Assembly: GCA_027035575.1 (NCBI GenBank)
Contig: JALVUQ010000039.1
Span: 1 to 53,406 of the forward strand
Direction: 5' to 3'
Origin: Desulfurellales bacterium
GTDB lineage: Bacteria; Campylobacterota_A; Desulfurellia; Desulfurellales; Hippeaceae
DNA length: 53,406 bases
The position numbers and the translations under genes are program-made. The notes under the pieces were generated by a model. It saw only the letters and a program-made list of their open reading frames with translations. It had not been told where the DNA came from and did no database searches. Below, one piece after another: positions 17,982-26,563 of the stretch (positions within the stretch are counted from its first letter, which is position 1; each line of letters begins with the position of its first letter).

Positions 17982-19703
17982 TTAACCCCCTATTTTAGAT
18001 AAAAAGGCATCTCTTACGGCAAACGACATATAACCGTTATTCATACCTGCCGTAAAAACAATATCATACATATAGCCTATTTTTAAATCCATCTCTCTAT
18101 CAAAAGAAATCATCCATATATCATGCGTATTATCGCTTATCAGAAACTTGGGATATTTTTCAAGTACCATTTTTTTATCTTTTATTATTGCGTGCTTAAC
18201 AAAAAACAGAGGTTCGTTGTTTGACTGTCCGAACGGCTCAAGTTGGGATAGTTCCTCCAAAAATTCCCTATTGAAAATCTCCAGCGATACCTCACAATCT
18301 ATATCGTAAGATTCGATAAAACTCAACTTTCCGTATTTTTCTTCGACTATTTTGTTGATTTTTTCCCTGAAATTGTCTATGCAGTCATTTTTTATGGTTA
18401 TGCCCACAGCCATCTTATGTCCGCCGAATTTTTCCAGCATATCGCCGGTTTCTTTTATGGCTGAAAACAGGTCTATCTCCTGGAGGCTTCTTCCGCTTCC
18501 TATGCTTACTTTTTCCATTTCGCTTATAATGATTGCCGGTTTGGAGTATTTGTATGATATGGTATTTGCCGCTATACCAATCACTCCTCTGTGCCAGCCT
18601 TTCCCAGATGCCACTATAACAGATTCGTCCGTATAGTTAATCTTTTTTTCTATATCCGAAACGATTTGGGTTTGCAATTTTCTTCTTTCGTTGTTTATTT
18701 CGTTTAATCTTTGCGCTATCTCTTCAACCTCAAGCCTGTCTTCTTTCATAAACATATCCACAACCAAAGATGCGTCGTAGAGTCTTCCGGCGGCATTTAT
18801 TCTCGGTGCTATGGAATAACTTACATTGCGAGATGTCAGATTTCCGTTTATGCCGGACACCTTTTTCAGCGATTCTATGCCTATGCAGGAATAGTCTTGA
18901 GAGGACAGTCCGAACCTTACGCATATACGGTTTTCATCAAGAAGAGGAACTATATCCGCAAGTGTTCCCAGTGCAACAAGGTCAAGATATTTCTTTAGAT
19001 TCGGTTGGCTGTGGTTTTGAAAAAAATTCATAGCCCTTAACTTGTTTCTTAAAGCCATAAGAAGGTTAAAAGCAACGCCTGCGCCTGACAGCTCCTTAAA
19101 GGGAAATTTGGAATCTTTTCTTTTGGGGTTTACAACGGCATATGCATTCGGGAGTTCTTCGGGCGGCTCGTGATGGTCTGTAACTATTACGTCTATCCCC
19201 ATAACCTTTGCAAAATCAACCTCATCCAAGCTTGTTATGCCGTTATCAACCGTAATTATCAGACCGAAATTCAACTCTATAGCCTTTTTTATCGCATCAA
19301 GACTCAGCCCGTAGCCGTCATTTCTTGTCGGTATGTAGAAATCGGTTTCAACCCCTATTTCCTGAAAAAATTTGAGCATAAGACTTGTTGCCGTTACGCC
19401 GTCTGTGTCATAATCGCCAACAATAAAGATTTTCTCGTTTTTACTTATTGCGTCTACAATCCTGCTTACGGCTATATCCATATCCTTCAGTAAAAAAGGA
19501 TTGTATAAATTATTTAGTGAGGGATATAGAAAATCTTTTATCTCTTTATGTGAGTTAATGCCTCTGTTGTTCAGAATTTTCTTTGTTGCATCGTAGAGCT
19601 TCAGGTCACCTATATCTATTTTTTTATTATCAAAACATTTTTGTTTGAGGGTAAGTTTTTTTTTAAGTTTTTTTATGTTGTTTAGCTCTATAATTTCACT
19701 CAT
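17982..19703 (-). CDS. recJ: Single-stranded-DNA-specific exonuclease RecJ
   Basis: 5'-3' exonuclease of the DHH family used in recombination and repair. 573 residues. Catalytic motifs: DYDTDG at 97-102 and DHH at 176-178, followed by the DHHA1 region ([14 protein letters not shown]...[10 protein letters not shown] with the GGHKMA motif) and a C-terminal OB-like domain. Overlaps the argH stop by four bases (ATGA). Confidence 0.96.
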
Positions 19704-21520
19704 ATCCCAACGCTTTTGAAAAAGTCCTCCAATATCTTTTTATGGTCAAAAACAATCTCTTCAGGCAGGTTATCTTTATCAAACAGACCTATGTCCAAAG
19801 CATCGTCGTCGGCTTTGGGAGTTCCTTGAGCTTTTGCCAAAAAAACCGTGCTTATCGTGTGGGTGCGCGGGTCTCTTTTAGGGTCTGAATAAACACCCAA
19901 AAGCCCGGTAAGCTCAACGTCAAGTCCCGTCTCCTCTTTTGCCTCCCTGACAGCAGCATTTTCGGCAGATTCACCGAAGTCTATAAAGCCTCCGGGTATA
20001 GCCCAACCGAGGGGTTCGTTTTTTCTTCTGATTAACACGATTTTATCGCCTGTTGTTATGATAATATCAACCGTAGGCACAGGGTTTTTATATACCTTAA
20101 CCGGATAGCCGCATCTTGGACATTCTATTGTGTTGCCCTCTTTTTTCTCAAGCTCTTTTTCTATTTCTTCTATAACTTTCGCTACATTGTCTTTTGCCGT
20201 ACCGCCGTAGCTTTTCCTTGAATCAATTGCTTTTTTGTAGTGCAGTATGTCTATGACATCACTCGTTATGTGCTCCGAAAACTTTTTCAGCTCGTCTATG
20301 GACAGCTCTTCGAGTCTTTTGGAATTTTGCTCCGCATAAGCGACTATGCTGCCGACAACCTTATGTGCCTCTCTGAAAGAAAGCCCTTTTCTTGTCAAAT
20401 AATCCGCCAAATCGGTTGCCGTTATAAACCCTTTTTTCAGAGCATTTTCCATAGATTCTTGCTTGGGTTTTATGCCGGGCAGCAGCTTAATCATTATGTT
20501 TATAATATCTAAAGCCGTATCAATCGAATCAAACAGGGACTCCTTATCCTCCTGCATATCTCTGTTGTATGTTAAAGGAAGGGCTTTCATAAGTGTTAAA
20601 AGTTGAACCAGATTGCCGTATGTTCTTGCCGTTTTACCCCTTATAAGTTCCATAGCATCCGGGTTTTTCTTCTGCGGCATAATGCTTGAGCCCGTGCAGA
20701 ACTCATCCGGCAGCTCTATAAAGTCAAACTCAGAGGTTGAAAACAGAATCATCTCCTCTGCAAACCTTGAGGTGTGCATAGCAAAGATGGCAACGTCATT
20801 TAGAAATTCTATTGCAAAATCCCTGTCGGATACGGCATCCATTGAGTTTCTCGATATTTTTGAAAACTTTAACTTCTCAGCCACGAACCTTCTGTCGATA
20901 GGGAAACCCGTTCCTGCCAGTGCACCGCTTCCAAGCGGCATAACATCAATTCGTTTGAGAGTGTCTTTAAACCTATCCGCATCTCTTTTGAATTTTTCGT
21001 AATATGCAAGAAGGTAGTGAGAAAACAAAACAGGCTGAGCGTGTTGAAGGTGAGTAAAGCCGGGCATAGAAACGTCTATGTTGTTTTTTGCAAGTTTAAC
21101 AATCTCTTTAAGCAAGAGGTAGAGCTTATCCACAATCTCCAAAGCGGCGTCTCTTAAAAGAAGCCTTATATCCAAAGCTACCTGGTCGTTTCTGCTTCTT
21201 GCCGTATGGAGCTTGCCGCCAGTTTTGCCAATCATCTCTATTAACTTGTGTTCTATATTCATATGAATGTCTTCGTCTTCTATGCGAAAATCAAACTCCC
21301 CGCTATCTATCATCTGCTTAATTTTACGCAGGGCATCAACTATCTTATCCGCCTCTTCCTCGGATATTATACTCTGCTTTGCAAGCATCTGAACGTGTGC
21401 TATGGAGCCGATAATGTCGTATTCGTAAAGCCTTTTGTCAAAACTAATCGATTCGGAAAACGATTCCATCAGGTTATCTGTGGATTTTGAAAATCTTCCT
21501 CCCCACAATTTCTCACTCAT
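19700..21520 (-). CDS. argH: Argininosuccinate lyase fused to a Nudix hydrolase
   Basis: A 606-residue fusion. Residues 1-460 are a complete argininosuccinate lyase (last step of arginine synthesis): N-terminus [28 protein letters not shown] at 156-171 and the catalytic signature [12 protein letters not shown] at 277-288. A CPRCG knuckle (467-471) and a full Nudix domain follow; the Nudix box runs from G511 with E517 and REAKEETG at 525-532. Usual ArgH has about 460 residues, so the extra 145 are an added domain. Both halves look intact. ATG at 21520 has AGGA upstream and overlaps hom by eight bases. The Nudix substrate is unknown. Confidence 0.95.
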
Positions 21521-22808
21521 CGTCAATCCTTATCAACAGTGTTTTGCTTTTTACAACATCGAGTTTATGTATCTTTTCCAACGCCTCTTGTATGCTTTTT
21601 TCTTTTGCTTTATGCGTCACAATAATCAAAGGCACCCAATTTTCACCTTTATTTAATTGAACGACGCTTTTTATGCTGATTCCGTTTTCTCCCAATATTC
21701 CCGATATTTTAGATAGAACACCCGCACTGTCTTCAACGCTAAACCTCAAGTAGTAGTCCATATCAAGCGAATTTATATCAACAACTCCTCTTTTTTTGAC
21801 ATAGTTAAACGGAAAAGACATAAGCGGTATGCGCAAAGGTGAGTTGTGTTTAATATTTCTTGCTATATCCATTACATCTGCAACAACGGCACTTGCAGTA
21901 GGCAGGCTGCCGGCACCCTTTCCTATGTAAACGGTGTCATCAGCCATATCGCATTGAATCTTGATTGCGTTATATTCACCGTCTGTCTTTGCCAAAATGT
22001 CGCTTTTTTTAACCATAGTCGGATGAACTCTAACATCAATTTTATCACCGACGAGTCTGGTTATGCCGAGCAGCTTAATCGTATATCCGAATTCATTTGC
22101 AAATTTTATATCCAAAAGTGAGATTTCTGTTATGCCCTCAGTAAAAACGTCGTATTCCGTTACATTGTCGCCAAACGAGATGGAGCTTAAAATAGCCATT
22201 TTGTGTGCCGAATCCATACCTTCAATATCGAAAGTCGGGTCGGCTTCTGCAAAACCCTTTTGCTGGGCATCCTTTAAAGCGTCCTCAAACGAAACCTCTT
22301 TTTTAAACATCTCCGTGAGTATGTAGTTGCACGTGCCGTTGACTATGGCTTTTATGGAATTTATGTTATTGGCGGAAAGAGACTCTTTGATTGCTTTTAT
22401 TATCGGAATACCGCCTGCAACTGCCGCTTCGTAACCTACATCGACCTTATTTTCAAATGCTTTGGAAAATATTTCAAATCCGTGTCTTGCAAGAAGAGCT
22501 TTATTTGCCGTAACAACGCTTTTTTTATGCTCAATTGCCTGCAAAATAAATTTTCTTGCAAAATCGTATCCGCCGACAAGCTCTATGACAATATCAATGT
22601 CATCTTGAAACAGGTCTTCGTATGAATCCGTTAAAATATTTTGTACTACTTTTTTGGCTTTGTCACTTACGGACTTTGAGCAGACCCTTTTTAAGTTTAA
22701 GTCAAACCCCAGTCGTTTTTTAATAATTTCAGCGTTATTATTGAGTATCTCAACAACACCGCTGCCCACCGTTCCGACGCCGAGCAACCCTATATTTACC
22801 TGATTCAT
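21513..22808 (-). CDS. hom: Homoserine dehydrogenase with ACT domain
   Basis: Makes homoserine for threonine, methionine and isoleucine. 431 residues. Rossmann motif [17 protein letters not shown] at the N-terminus; catalytic region [16 protein letters not shown]...[13 protein letters not shown]...[19 protein letters not shown]; the last 80 residues are an ACT regulatory domain ([30 protein letters not shown]), implying threonine feedback. ATG at 22808 has GGGG upstream. First gene of the seven-gene operon. Confidence 0.96.
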
Positions 22809-22842
22809 AAACAACCCCGCCTCTTTTCAAAAGTTAAGACAA

Positions 22843-22870
22843 TATATAATTATTAGGGTGTTTATGTCAA
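22843..22870 (-). promoter_or_regulatory. Sigma-70 promoter of the hom operon
   Basis: On the minus strand TTGACA (22865-22870) is separated by 16 bases from TATATA (22843-22848). A second TTGACA directly precedes it (22871-22876), so the -35 element is duplicated in tandem. The 5' untranslated region would be about 27 bases. It lies in the 78-base gap between aroF and hom. Confidence 0.75.
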
Positions 22871-22886
22871 TGTCAATTATATCAAA

Positions 22887-23918
22887 TCAGTCCATACTCT
22901 TACCAACAGCCTTGGCTATCTTTTTTAACTCCTTAACGAGTTCGCAGTATTCCTTTACGTTAAGCTGTTGTGCGGCATCGGATACGGCAATCTCAGGTTT
23001 GTAGTGAACCTCTATCAACAGTCCGTCTGCTCCAACAGCCACGGCTGCTTTGGATAAAGCAGGCACATAATCTCTCTTTCCGGCAGCATGGGAGGGGTCT
23101 ATTAACACCGGCAAGTGAGTTTCTTTCTTTAATACAGGAACGGCAGAAATATCGAGCGTGCTTCTTGTTGCCGTTTCAAATGTCCTAATTCCTCTCTCGC
23201 AAAGAATTACATCGCCGTTTCCTTCACTCATAACATATTCCGCACTCATTAAAAATTCCTGTATTGTTGTTGACATACCTCTTTTTAACAGCACTGCTTT
23301 ATCTGTTTGACCCACGAGCTTTAACAGGGAGAAATTTTGTATATTTCTTGCGCCGATTTGCAAAACATCCGCGTATTTGAGAACCACATCCAAATCTTTA
23401 GGGTTCATAACCTCGGTTACTATAGGCATATCTGTCAACTCGGATGCCTCTTTGAGAAGTTTCAGCCCTTCTTCTCCAAGCCCCTGGAATGTGTAGGGTG
23501 AGGTTCTCGGTTTGAATGCACCGCCCCTCAGCATTTTTGCTCCGCATTTTTTTATGCCTGTTGCGGTTTCAATCATCTGCTGTCTGTTTTCAACGGAACA
23601 AGGACCGGCTATTATCGTAAAGTTGCCTCCTCCTACAACCACGTCTTTAACCTTTACAATAGTATCTTTTTCCCTATTTTCTCTTGAAGCAAGTTTGTAG
23701 GGCTTTGTTACGGGATAAACCCTATCGACGTTTTTATCGGTTGACAGTATTGCTATCGGGTCCAAGCTTAGCTTATCCTTATCAAGATTACCCACAACCC
23801 CGATTACCGTTCGTTCGCTTCCTTTGGATATATGGGCTTTCAACCCCATATCCTCAATACGCCCTCTTACCCTTTCAACATCCTGCTCTTTGGAATTTTT
23901 CTTCATTACAACAATCAT
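22887..23918 (-). CDS. aroF: DAHP synthase (3-deoxy-7-phosphoheptulonate synthase), Thermotoga/AroA-type
   Basis: First enzyme of the shikimate pathway, joining phosphoenolpyruvate and erythrose 4-phosphate. 343 residues. An N-terminal ferredoxin-like domain (1-80) typical of type I-beta enzymes precedes the barrel. Catalytic segments: IIAGPCSVEN, LRGGAFKPRTSPYTFQGLG, IGARNIQNF, LLKRGMSTTIQEFLMSAEY, VLIDPSHAAGKRDYV. GGAGG lies upstream of ATG 23918. Expression is very probably controlled by the attenuator just upstream. The exact symbol varies between genomes (aroF, aroG, aroA). Confidence 0.93.
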   Translation of the reverse strand: MIVVMKKNSKEQDVERVRGRIEDMGLKAHISKGSERTVIGVVGNLDKDKLSLDPIAILSTDKNVDRVYPVTKPYKLASRENREKDTIVKVKDVVVGGGNFTIIAGPCSVENRQQMIETATGIKKCGAKMLRGGAFKPRTSPYTFQGLGEEGLKLLKEASELTDMPIVTEVMNPKDLDVVLKYADVLQIGARNIQNFSLLKLVGQTDKAVLLKRGMSTTIQEFLMSAEYVMSEGNGDVILCERGIRTFETATRSTLDISAVPVLKKETHLPVLIDPSHAAGKRDYVPALSKAAVAVGADGLLIEVHYKPEIAVSDAAQQLNVKEYCELVKELKKIAKAVGKSMD

Positions 23919-23951
23919 CTTATACCTCCGAACTTAAATTTTTTTACAAAT

Positions 23952-23999
23952 AAAAAAAGCCGTTTGGGAAGGCTTCTGGCGACCTACCCAAACGGCTTT
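23952..23999 (-). terminator. Attenuator terminator in the DAHP synthase leader
   Basis: A perfect 13-base inverted repeat: AAAGCCGTTTGGG on the plus strand at 23956-23968, and its complement at 23987-23999, with an 18-base loop. On the minus strand the hairpin is followed by seven T (23952-23958). It lies between the leader peptide gene and the DAHP synthase start, so it stops transcription before the gene unless prevented from folding. Confidence 0.92.
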
Positions 24000-24089
24000 A
24001 ATTAAAAGCTGCGTTAAAATTCAGGTAGTCCGCCCCCTATAGAAAAACCAGAAATAATAAGCATAAAAGCTATAGGAAAAAACTCTACC
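23978..24089 (-). promoter_or_regulatory. Alternative antiterminator and pause structures of the aromatic attenuator
   Basis: Minus strand. Segment 2 (24024-24034, GGCGGACTACC) can pair with segment 3 in the terminator loop (23978-23988, GGTAGGTCGCC): ten pairs including one G-U, one mismatch; this would break the terminator. Segment 2 can instead pair with segment 1: CCTATAG (24070-24076) with CTATAGG (24036-24042), plus GGTAG (24085-24089) with CTACC (24024-24028). Segment 1 lies in the aromatic codons, so a stalled ribosome would free segment 2 for segment 3. This is the classic trp/phe attenuation logic; folding is inferred, not computed. Confidence 0.8.
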
Positions 24090-24110
24090 CGAATTACTCA
24101 AACCACTCAT
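24021..24110 (-). CDS. Aromatic-rich attenuator leader peptide of the DAHP synthase gene
   Basis: A 29-codon frame, ATG at 24110 to TGA at 24021-24023. Residues 11-24 read FSYSFYAYYFWFFY: 11 of 14 are Phe, Tyr or Trp (five Phe, five Tyr, one Trp). Such runs are known from pheL, trpL and similar regulatory leaders and sense charged aromatic tRNAs. No Shine-Dalgarno sequence is visible; the -10 box ends ten bases before the ATG, so the message is probably leaderless or nearly so. The codons overlap the pairing segments described for the attenuator. Confidence 0.88.
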   Translation of the reverse strand: MSGLSNSGRVFSYSFYAYYFWFFYRGRTT

Positions 24111-24119
24111 AATGAACTG

Positions 24120-24148
24120 CTTATAACAAATAAATTTTTAAAATGCAA
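24120..24148 (-). promoter_or_regulatory. Promoter of the DAHP synthase leader
   Basis: Minus strand TTGCAT (24143-24148), 17-base spacer, TATAAG (24120-24125). Expected start near 24112-24113, two or three bases before the leader-peptide ATG at 24110. Confidence 0.75.
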
Positions 24149-24395: not shown

Positions 24396-25463
24396 TTAAA
24401 GATATTTAACTATTTTATAGTCGGTTGTTCTTAAAGCAGGTTTAAAGCCGGCTTTTTTTATAATGTCGGCTATTTCTTGCACGGTCGATTCGGCTCTGAA
24501 ACCGGCTTCTCTCATAACGTTTTCTTCAACAAGCATACTGCCCATATCGTTGGCACCAAAATGAAGGGCAATCTCTCCCACATCCTTGCCTTGAGATGCC
24601 CAGGAAGCCTGTATATTGTCAAAATTATCGAGGAATATGCGTGATACGGCGACAATTTTCAAATAGTCCATACCGGTTACGCTTCTTTCTATACGCTTTC
24701 CAAGTTCGTTATTCTCTTTTTTGAAATCCCAAGCTATAAAAGCCGAAAATCCTTTTGTTTTATCCTGAAGCTCTCTTAATCTTTGCAGATGTTCCACAAT
24801 ATCTTCTTCGGTTTCTATGTGACCGAACATCATTGTTGCCGTCGTTCTTATGCCGAGTTTGTGTGCTTCTTCCATAATTTCAAGCCATCTCTCGGTGCTT
24901 ATCTTTTTTGGAGAAATTCTTTTTCTGACTCTTTCTGTCAGAATTTCAGCGCCACCTCCGGGGATTGTTTTTAAACCGGCTTGTTTTAAATCAAACAGGA
25001 CATCTTTTGTGCTTTTTTTAGATATTTTACACATCAAGTCGATTTCGGGCGGTGAGAACGCGTGAACGTGAACGTTACTTTTTGATAGTTCGCTAACCAA
25101 GTCTATATAGTAGGAATACGGTATATCAGGGTTAAGTCCGCCTTGAATCAAAGCTGTTGTAATACCAAGCTCTTCTGCCGACTTTATCTTCCTTTTTAAC
25201 TCCTCAATTGTTAAGGTATATACGTCTTCTGCCTTTTTGTCTCTGTAAAACGCACAAAACAGACACCCTACATAACAAATATTGGTGTAGTTAATATTCG
25301 TATCGAGAATAAAGGTTACGGTATCTTCGGGGTGTTTTCTGAATCTCACCATATCGGCGTATTCACCGAGCTTTAGAAAATCCCACTCTTTTAAAAGTCT
25401 CAAAGCCTCTTTGGCTGTTATTCTTTCGTTGTTTTTTATTTTTTCATATATATTATTCATCAT
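24396..25463 (-). CDS. mqnC: Cyclic dehypoxanthinyl futalosine synthase MqnC (radical SAM)
   Basis: Radical-SAM enzyme of the futalosine menaquinone pathway, forming the spiro-cyclic naphthoquinone precursor. 355 residues. The Fe-S/SAM motif is C63-x3-C67-x2-C70 (CYVGCLFC), followed by AFYR. Further family features: LIQGGLNPDIPYSYYIDLV, IPGGGAEIL, TATMMFGHIETEEDIVEHLQRLRELQ and ALHFGANDMGSMLVEENV. Adjacent MqnE supports the assignment. Two start ATGs (25463, 25460) overlap the mqnE stop region. Confidence 0.9.
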   Translation of the reverse strand: MMNNIYEKIKNNERITAKEALRLLKEWDFLKLGEYADMVRFRKHPEDTVTFILDTNINYTNICYVGCLFCAFYRDKKAEDVYTLTIEELKRKIKSAEELGITTALIQGGLNPDIPYSYYIDLVSELSKSNVHVHAFSPPEIDLMCKISKKSTKDVLFDLKQAGLKTIPGGGAEILTERVRKRISPKKISTERWLEIMEEAHKLGIRTTATMMFGHIETEEDIVEHLQRLRELQDKTKGFSAFIAWDFKKENNELGKRIERSVTGMDYLKIVAVSRIFLDNFDNIQASWASQGKDVGEIALHFGANDMGSMLVEENVMREAGFRAESTVQEIADIIKKAGFKPALRTTDYKIVKYL

Positions 25464-26532
25464 ACACCGCTATTTCATTGTACAGAGCATCTCTTTCAAC
25501 CGGAACAAAACCGGCATTTTTAATTAGGTTAATCATATTTTCTTTAGCCAATCCCAAAGGGCTTTTTGCTCCTGCTGCGTGAGTGACTCTCTCTTGCCCT
25601 ATTGTTCCGTCCATATCGTCGGCACCGAAATGCAGTCCGATTTGCCCGACCTTCGGAGAAAGCATAACCCAGTATGCTTTGATATGTGGGAAATTATCCA
25701 AAATGATGCGCGACAAAGCCAAAATTTTTAATTCCCTAACGGCATCCACCTTCTTAATATTTTCCGACAACGGTGTATTTTCAGGATGAAAGCTCAAAGG
25801 TATAAAACATAAAAACCCTGGAGACTCTTCTTGAATTTTCTTTAGTTTAAACAGATGGTTTATTATTTCCTCGTCGGTCTCTATGTGTCCGAAAAGAAGT
25901 GTTGCATTGGTTGGGATATTGAGGCTATGTGCTGTTTTGTGCACCTCAGCCCACTTTTCGTAAGGTATTTTGTTCGGGTAGAGCTTCTTTCTGACCCTTT
26001 CGGAAAACACCTCTGCTCCGCCGCCTGGCATTGAGTCAAGTCCCGCATTTTTCAAAATTGTTAGCGTTTCTTTGTATGATATACCCTCAAGATTGGAAAA
26101 ATAGTCTATCTCAACCGCCGTAAAAGCCTTAACGTTTATATCCCTGAAATTTTTCTTTATGCTTTTTATCATATCTACATAGTAAGAAAACGGCTTTGTT
26201 GGATGCAGCCCTCCTACTATGTGCACCTCTTTTATACCGTTTGGCATCTTTCCTATCTCATCAATAATCGTATCTATCTCCATTGTATATGCGTCCTGCT
26301 CGTCTCCGTTTCTGTAAAATGCACAAAATTTACATTTGGAAACGCACAGGTTTGTATAATTTATATGCTTGTTAAATACGAAATAAACCTTATTTTGACT
26401 TTTTTTATATTTTATTTTTCCGGCGAGTTTTCCTATTTCAATAAGCTTTGCGGATGAAAGCAGGTATTTTGCATCCTCAAAGCTTAAAGGCTCGTTAGAT
26501 TCCAATTTTTTTTCGATATATTCAACATTCAT
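25453..26532 (-). CDS. mqnE: Aminofutalosine synthase MqnE (radical SAM)
   Basis: First committed menaquinone step in the futalosine route: adds SAM-derived adenosyl to 3-[(1-carboxyvinyl)oxy]benzoate. 359 residues. C63-x3-C67-x2-C70 (CVSKCKFC) followed by AFYR; family segments EVHIVGGLHPTKPFSYYVDMI, SMPGGGAEVFSERVRKKLYP, NATLLFGHIETDEEIINHL and LHFGADDMDGTIGQE. ATG at 26532 is preferred, seven bases after AGGGG; GTG at 26535 would add one residue. Overlaps mqnC by 11 bases, so the pair is co-translated. Confidence 0.9.
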   Translation of the reverse strand: MNVEYIEKKLESNEPLSFEDAKYLLSSAKLIEIGKLAGKIKYKKSQNKVYFVFNKHINYTNLCVSKCKFCAFYRNGDEQDAYTMEIDTIIDEIGKMPNGIKEVHIVGGLHPTKPFSYYVDMIKSIKKNFRDINVKAFTAVEIDYFSNLEGISYKETLTILKNAGLDSMPGGGAEVFSERVRKKLYPNKIPYEKWAEVHKTAHSLNIPTNATLLFGHIETDEEIINHLFKLKKIQEESPGFLCFIPLSFHPENTPLSENIKKVDAVRELKILALSRIILDNFPHIKAYWVMLSPKVGQIGLHFGADDMDGTIGQERVTHAAGAKSPLGLAKENMINLIKNAGFVPVERDALYNEIAVYDE

Positions 26533-26563
26533 CACAAAACCCCTTTTTAAAACCAGAGGGCAT

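Follow-up and report, generated by a model that had tools for sequence, protein, structure and literature searches.

A predicted ribosome-mediated attenuator with Phe, Tyr and Trp codons upstream of the DAHP synthase gene aroF in Desulfurellales

The aroF Locus and Its Neighbouring Genes

The window, that is, the whole stretch of 53,406 nt of Desulfurellales DNA that was analysed, carries on its minus strand the gene aroF, and a base-level reading of the sequence in front of it (minus strand, 24148-23952) revealed a promoter, a leader, an antiterminator and a terminator. The gene product is a type I-beta DAHP synthase by Pfam and NCBIfam profiles (NF006421/TIGR01361 above cut-off), in agreement with the preliminary description, which had placed the element before DAHP synthase. 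The features are as follows.

24120-24148, minus strand: promoter, -35 TTGCAT (24148-24143) and -10 TATAAG (24125-24120), spacer 17 nt; read from sequence
24021-24110, minus strand: leader ORF MSGLSNSGRVFSYSFYAYYFWFFYRGRTT followed by a stop codon, 29 codons, ATG at 24110, without a Shine-Dalgarno sequence
24085-24095, minus strand: segment 1 AATTCGGGTAG, which pairs with segment 2 as its protector; lineage-specific rather than conserved
24039-24080, minus strand: control codons 11-24 (F S Y S F Y A Y Y F W F F Y), 11/14 aromatic
24019-24034, minus strand: segment 2 GGCGGACTACCTGAAT, holds the leader stop TGA (24023-24021); from folds and alignment
23978-23993, minus strand: segment 3 GTTTGGGTAGGTCGCC, partner of segment 2 (antiterminator) or segment 4 (terminator); from folds and covariation
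23952-23999, minus strand: intrinsic terminator with a 13-pair stem, a 4-pair upper stem and T7; segment 4 lies in its 3' arm
23924-23929, minus strand: aroF Shine-Dalgarno sequence GGAGGT, outside the terminator; read from sequence
22887-23918, minus strand: aroF, a 343-aa type I-beta DAHP synthase that carries a ferredoxin-like regulatory domain at its N-terminus (PF00793 8.5e-85; PF18152 2.9e-19)
21513-22814, minus strand: hom, homoserine dehydrogenase with an ACT domain, next gene after aroF; profile match

Co-transcription of hom with aroF is possible. The aroF-hom order is kept in most genomes of family f1 and was not seen in Desulfurella. The gap between the two genes (22815-22886, minus strand) contains a promoter-like TTGACA-18-TATATT, and expression of hom may thus rest on more than the attenuator. 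Co-regulation of hom and argH as the general reason for the element was rejected, since the gene order is absent in Desulfurella and others. At 19700-21526 (minus strand), one 608-aa ORF joins argininosuccinate lyase to a C-terminal NUDIX domain (Pfam Lyase_1, ASL_C2 and NUDIX match), and full-length matches in L003, L004 and L005 suggest that this fusion is kept. Upstream of the leader (24396-26535, minus strand) lie mqnC and a radical-SAM ORF related to it; both are menaquinone genes of the futalosine pathway, which consumes chorismate, and they adjoin the gate of chorismate synthesis.

Promoter, Leader ORF and Terminator

The preliminary description had claimed a promoter and a 29-codon leader with 11 aromatic residues in codons 11-24, and the sequence reads exactly so, with 5 Phe, 5 Tyr and 1 Trp in the control run. 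Among the 56,635 stop-free 14-codon stretches in the six frames of the whole window, this run, FSYSFYAYYFWFFY, has the highest F/Y/W count, and when the 477-nt intergenic region was shuffled 1,500 times with its dinucleotides preserved, an ORF with 11 aromatic codons never arose. The leader ATG lies 9 nt 3' of the -10 element, and transcription would start at about 24113-24112, giving a predicted leader 5' UTR of 2-3 nt. Unlike the leader ORF, aroF itself has its own ribosome-binding sequence, GGAGGT.

The perfect 13-pair terminator with a T-run that had been described was likewise borne out: the stem is formed by AAAGCCGTTTGGG and CCCAAACGGCTTT (23999-23987 with 23968-23956), the T7 occupies 23958-23952, and the terminator tail folds with -27.1 kcal/mol. 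A consensus promoter scan gave no match at the leader promoter (the pattern requires T as the last -10 base) and a consensus terminator scan gave none at the aroF terminator (limit on the apical loop); both misses stem from the limits of the patterns and are thus no evidence against either element. Promoter and terminator were therefore assessed by eye, fold and conservation in place of consensus scans.

Conservation across the Order

The affinity to Hippea and Desulfurella that the preliminary description had assumed proved right. In the GTDB order, aroF is present in 19/19 genomes (6 genera, 2 families), and leader and terminator precede it in all 19. A detailed comparison was carried out on 20 loci, the 19 order genomes and L008, whose sequence is the same as that of the L095 contig. 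The 20 leaders are 23-33 aa long with 8-14 F/Y/W codons, and Phe, Tyr and Trp are each present in every one of them, so that the mixture of the three kinds of codon noted earlier for the window holds throughout; most leaders have one Trp codon and those of Desulfurella up to 3. The CTTGC...TATAA layout recurs, with a gap from -10 to ATG of exactly 9 nt in 13 loci and of 5-10 nt in 19 of the 20, and no Shine-Dalgarno sequence was seen there. In the sister family f4 (L095-L097), leader and terminator are also present, and the leaders have a longer 5' UTR with GGAG (L095, L097) or GGGGA (L096).

Within close groups, the aromatic-codon differences in the run are all synonymous (TAT/TAC, TTC/TTT) except for one Tyr/Asn, a pattern that fits the prediction for a translated control region, while the leader peptide outside the run is not conserved between genera. 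The genes upstream of aroF differ among relatives and the element stays with aroF. Relatives lacking both the aromatic run and the terminator would have counted against the preliminary description, yet the two are kept order-wide; the sole exception is the more distant L098 (49% identity), where aroF lies directly behind another gene, in an operon, and leader and terminator are absent.

RNA Folding and Covariation

In the window, the full-length minimum-energy fold contains helices 1:2 and 3:4 (-54.4), and the 2:3 helix forms (-22.2) when segment 4 is not yet transcribed. Both of the mutually exclusive helices claimed previously, 1:2 and 2:3, thus exist in the window, but only 2:3 is general among relatives: the 1:2 helix is present in the window, in the sister locus L065 and in g4 (L066, L067); L072/L080 have a weaker or partial form of it, and the other loci have none. 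Helix 1:2 is therefore not a conserved part of the switch, which is predicted to consist of 2:3 against 3:4. The trp-like picture therefore carries over only in part, with a covarying 2:3/3:4 switch but no conserved 1:2 helix.

Per-genome folds gave a strong terminator in 20/20 loci and the antiterminator 2:3 in 19/20; for L068 the fold picked another structure, although inspection by eye shows nine 2:3 pairs. The conserved aromatic codons and covarying stems that the preliminary description had proposed to look for in an alignment of aroF upstream regions were both found. In the antiterminator 2:3, 86.9% of cells are paired, with a covariation of 0.510 against 0.298 in shuffles (0/500) and 22 double-change cells; in the terminator 3:4, 91.6% of cells are paired, with a covariation of 0.336 against 0.205 (0/500) and double changes in 10/14 pairs, the shuffles in both cases ignoring kinship among the sequences. 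Both signals collapse when the fixed-register alignment is slid by 1-3 columns. Because the register was fixed by hand according to the pairing, the cells-paired measure is favoured; the double changes are the stronger evidence.

In every relative, the stop codon of the leader falls within segment 2 or at its edge. In most genera it opens segment 2, with UAG opposite CUA or UAA opposite UUA in segment 3, and in the window the stop UGA sits in the 3' part of segment 2. In each of the 20 loci, 8-18 nt separate the last aromatic codon from segment 2.

Ribosome-Position Model

A positional model was applied to the 20 loci, in which the RNA was transcribed to the end of segment 3 and a ribosome was placed with the stop codon or an aromatic codon in its A site; the folds are static thermodynamic ones at 37 °C, whereas the order's known members are thermophiles. 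P(2:3) was 0.00 in 20/20 loci for the stop codon and 0.5-1.0 for nearly all aromatic codons, the exceptions being the last W in Desulfurella L079-L081 (0.00), the last W in L008 (0.41) and the first three aromatic codons of L068. Together with the spacing of 8-18 nt, these values suggest that the codons on which a ribosome would stall are placed to antiterminate and the stop codon to terminate. Without a ribosome, 2:3 also formed in 18/20 loci, which indicates that the conserved logic would be to terminate only after complete translation, with the protector as an optional extra, and that an untranslated leader would be read through, unlike in E. coli trp.

Proposed Mechanism

The element is predicted to be a ribosome-mediated transcription attenuator of aroF gated by Phe, Tyr and Trp, with a probability of roughly 0.92. 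The preliminary reading as an aromatic attenuator is upheld by the order-wide conservation of the leader, the synonymous changes, the covariation and the flip of the model at the stop codon. From these parts and positions we infer the following course. Transcription would start 2-3 nt ahead of the leader ATG, and a ribosome would load on the near-leaderless message. When there is ample charged tRNA for Phe, Tyr and Trp alike, the ribosome would translate as far as the stop codon within segment 2; with segment 2 covered, 2:3 could not form, the 3:4 hairpin would form instead, and the polymerase would halt at the T-run before aroF. A shortage of even one of them would make the ribosome stall in the F/Y/W run and leave segment 2 free ahead of it, so that segments 2 and 3 would pair and transcription would proceed into aroF. 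In the window's genus, the 1:2 helix may also hold segment 2 in an untranslated leader. The sensing of three amino acids is predicted from the leader codons, and since most leaders have a single Trp codon, the response to Trp may be weak.

Compared with the trp/his/leu class of attenuators, sequence and folds provide a leader ORF rich in codons for the end products, a terminator before the first gene and an antiterminator blocked at the stop codon. The protector/pause helix 1:2, typical of that class and not universal in it, was found in the window and L065-L067 and not order-wide; as it is treated as optional in the class, its absence does not exclude membership. An Rfam scan at the gathering score gave no cis-regulatory match in the region, and at a permissive E-value nothing meaningful appeared, the best leader-type match being the RF04312 trpB motif (22.8 bits; cut-off 59); no T-box family match was obtained in these scans.

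Alternative Explanations

The element could be a true attenuator that senses no more than two of the three amino acids, Phe and/or Tyr being the likeliest, with the mixed codons arising by drift among aromatics. F and Y do dominate the window's leader, and the Phe-Tyr-Phe leader of C. glutamicum responds to Phe only (PMC11802643); on the other side, Trp occurs in all 20 leaders, up to 3 times each in Desulfurella, and in the model a stall at nearly every aromatic codon, W included, frees segment 2, with few exceptions. We regard this reading as unlikely, though the most serious of those weighed here. Far less probable is a leader whose main product acts in trans, as an RNA or peptide like rhizobial rnTrpL/peTrpL, with attenuation secondary. 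Sinorhizobium peTrpL is reported to work in trans (PMC7298713), and the terminated leader here would be an RNA of ~160 nt, but the peptide beyond the aromatic run differs from genus to genus and a cis switch fully explains the covariation.

Aromatic leader peptides can also arrest ribosomes, as TnaC does (PMC8429421), so that the signal read by the leader might be the free aromatic amino acids, or some other ligand, and not the charging of tRNA. This is very improbable: peptide sequence and length vary (23-33 aa) and what is kept is the aromatic run and its distance to segment 2, aroF is a biosynthetic gene for which starvation control is expected, and trpE of the same genomes has a plain WWW leader. 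The remaining account, an ordinary mqnC terminator together with a chance T-rich ORF and an aroF not regulated at this place, can draw on the fact that a terminator alone could stop upstream transcription and that F/Y codons are T-rich in an AT-rich spacer. It has a negligible chance of being right in view of the shuffles, the leader codons conserved through synonymous changes, the 2:3 covariation that involves the leader stop codon and the conserved promoter between mqnC and the terminator, and the assignment of the terminator to mqnC was rejected because the upstream genes vary while the element travels with aroF.

Trp Leaders at trpE

The genome of the window has an apparently near-leaderless leader, MVSFGIERSIVLFNNWWWGS followed by a stop codon, and a terminator before trpE (L093, 1217-1279; G000:C108). 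A WWW leader and terminator precede 15/15 trpE genes found in the order (including L106-L119), in a near-leaderless layout like that of aroF, and these matching Trp-only leaders indicate that the lineage uses this kind of control. The lineage is thus predicted to have a Trp-only switch at the trp branch and a three-way switch at the pathway entry, a contrast of design within one genome between a pan-aromatic gate at the shikimate entry and a Trp-only gate. In the same genome, pheA (bifunctional CM-PDT) lies between other genes, with no leader seen in the ORF list.

Aromatic Leaders beyond Desulfurellales

An aromatic leader and terminator, mostly led by a Shine-Dalgarno sequence, were also found before aroF in Desulfuromonadales, Desulfuromusa, a Desulfobacteraceae, an Oscillospiraceae and a Neomarinimicrobiota MAG, and the leader codons of Desulfuromonadales are mainly Phe. 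At L014-L042, L053 and L057 (Desulfuromonadota and scattered phyla), leader ORFs of this kind were observed together with antiterminator-like pairing and a terminator before aroF.

In Woesearchaeota MAGs (loci L127-L137, L157-L185; e.g., L019 upstream of 4001), 23/36 distinct aroF loci have an ATG ORF with at least 6 aromatic residues in its last 12 codons, where shuffles expect 0.17 loci. The run ends at or next to the stop codon, e.g., FAFYRLFSSFRYFFFYFKH, LRYFFWNFAYFFYFG and FTFWFTYFFFY, each followed by a stop; the ORFs mostly lie 24-40 nt behind an archaeal TATA box, and a hairpin without a T-run usually comes after them. The neighbours of L019, a DRG-type GTPase and aroB, fit an archaeal aro operon. 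No Trp leaders were found ahead of archaeal trpE. These ORFs possibly represent leader-peptide control in archaea, and as candidates they are more surprising than the Desulfurellales attenuator itself; they could raise the question of ribosome-mediated attenuation in archaea, for which no paper was found in the literature searched. If they work by ribosome stalling, leader-peptide attenuation, or a similar new mechanism, would exist in Archaea. A wide class of aromatic leader ORFs at DAHP synthases with the ferredoxin-like domain, near-leaderless and lacking a conserved protector helix in Desulfurellales, Shine-Dalgarno-led in Desulfuromonadota and TATA-led and terminator-less in Woesearchaeota, is proposed tentatively, at slightly less than even odds.

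Comparison with Known Systems

Attenuators in Desulfurellales were not found in the literature searches, and the present comparison would place amino-acid attenuation firmly in this order, whose cultured members Hippea and Desulfurella make it testable. A protector-free switch on a near-leaderless message would be a natural minimal attenuator, and read-through of the untranslated leader is its prediction.

As in enterobacterial trpL/pheL, there are control codons, competing 2:3 and 3:4 helices and a stop codon that masks segment 2. The enterobacterial leaders sense a single amino acid on a leadered message with a Shine-Dalgarno sequence, whereas the Desulfurellales aroF leader has codons for three aromatics and is predicted to be near-leaderless, and the 1:2 protector hairpin that is standard in trpL/pheL is not conserved in Desulfurellales. 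Leaders whose codons cover more than one end product of a branched pathway are known from ilvL (Ile, Val, Leu) and thrL (Thr, Ile), which share the multi-product design in a different pathway; an aromatic counterpart with all three residues in one leader was not found in the literature searched.

The message from which the trpL leader of Sinorhizobium is translated has a very short 5' UTR or none. In Actinobacteria, trpL, leuL and ilvL of Streptomyces lividans are leaderless leader peptides (PMC8079986). These leaders are Trp- or branched-chain-specific; the Desulfurellales aroF leader, for which a similarly short 5' UTR is predicted, keeps its layout over two families.

The closest known case is aroR-aroF of C. 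glutamicum, where an aromatic leader peptide likewise precedes DAHP synthase and stalling raises operon transcription (Neshat et al. 2014 as cited in PMC11802643; predicted in PMC4046766). Its aroR leader has Phe-Tyr-Phe and is reported to respond to Phe, with Tyr being without effect (PMC11802643). In contrast to these three codons, the Desulfurellales leaders have 8-14 F/Y/W codons including Trp, and the two lineages are unrelated. For Geobacter and shikimate attenuators, the searches gave no further close case; an earlier prediction for Desulfuromonadota may exist in the main proteobacterial survey (Vitreschak et al. 2004). The kind of attenuator, the aroR-aroF arrangement and both leaderless and multivalent leaders are therefore known, and what appears to be new, well supported by the sequence comparison, is their combination and its presence in Desulfurellales.
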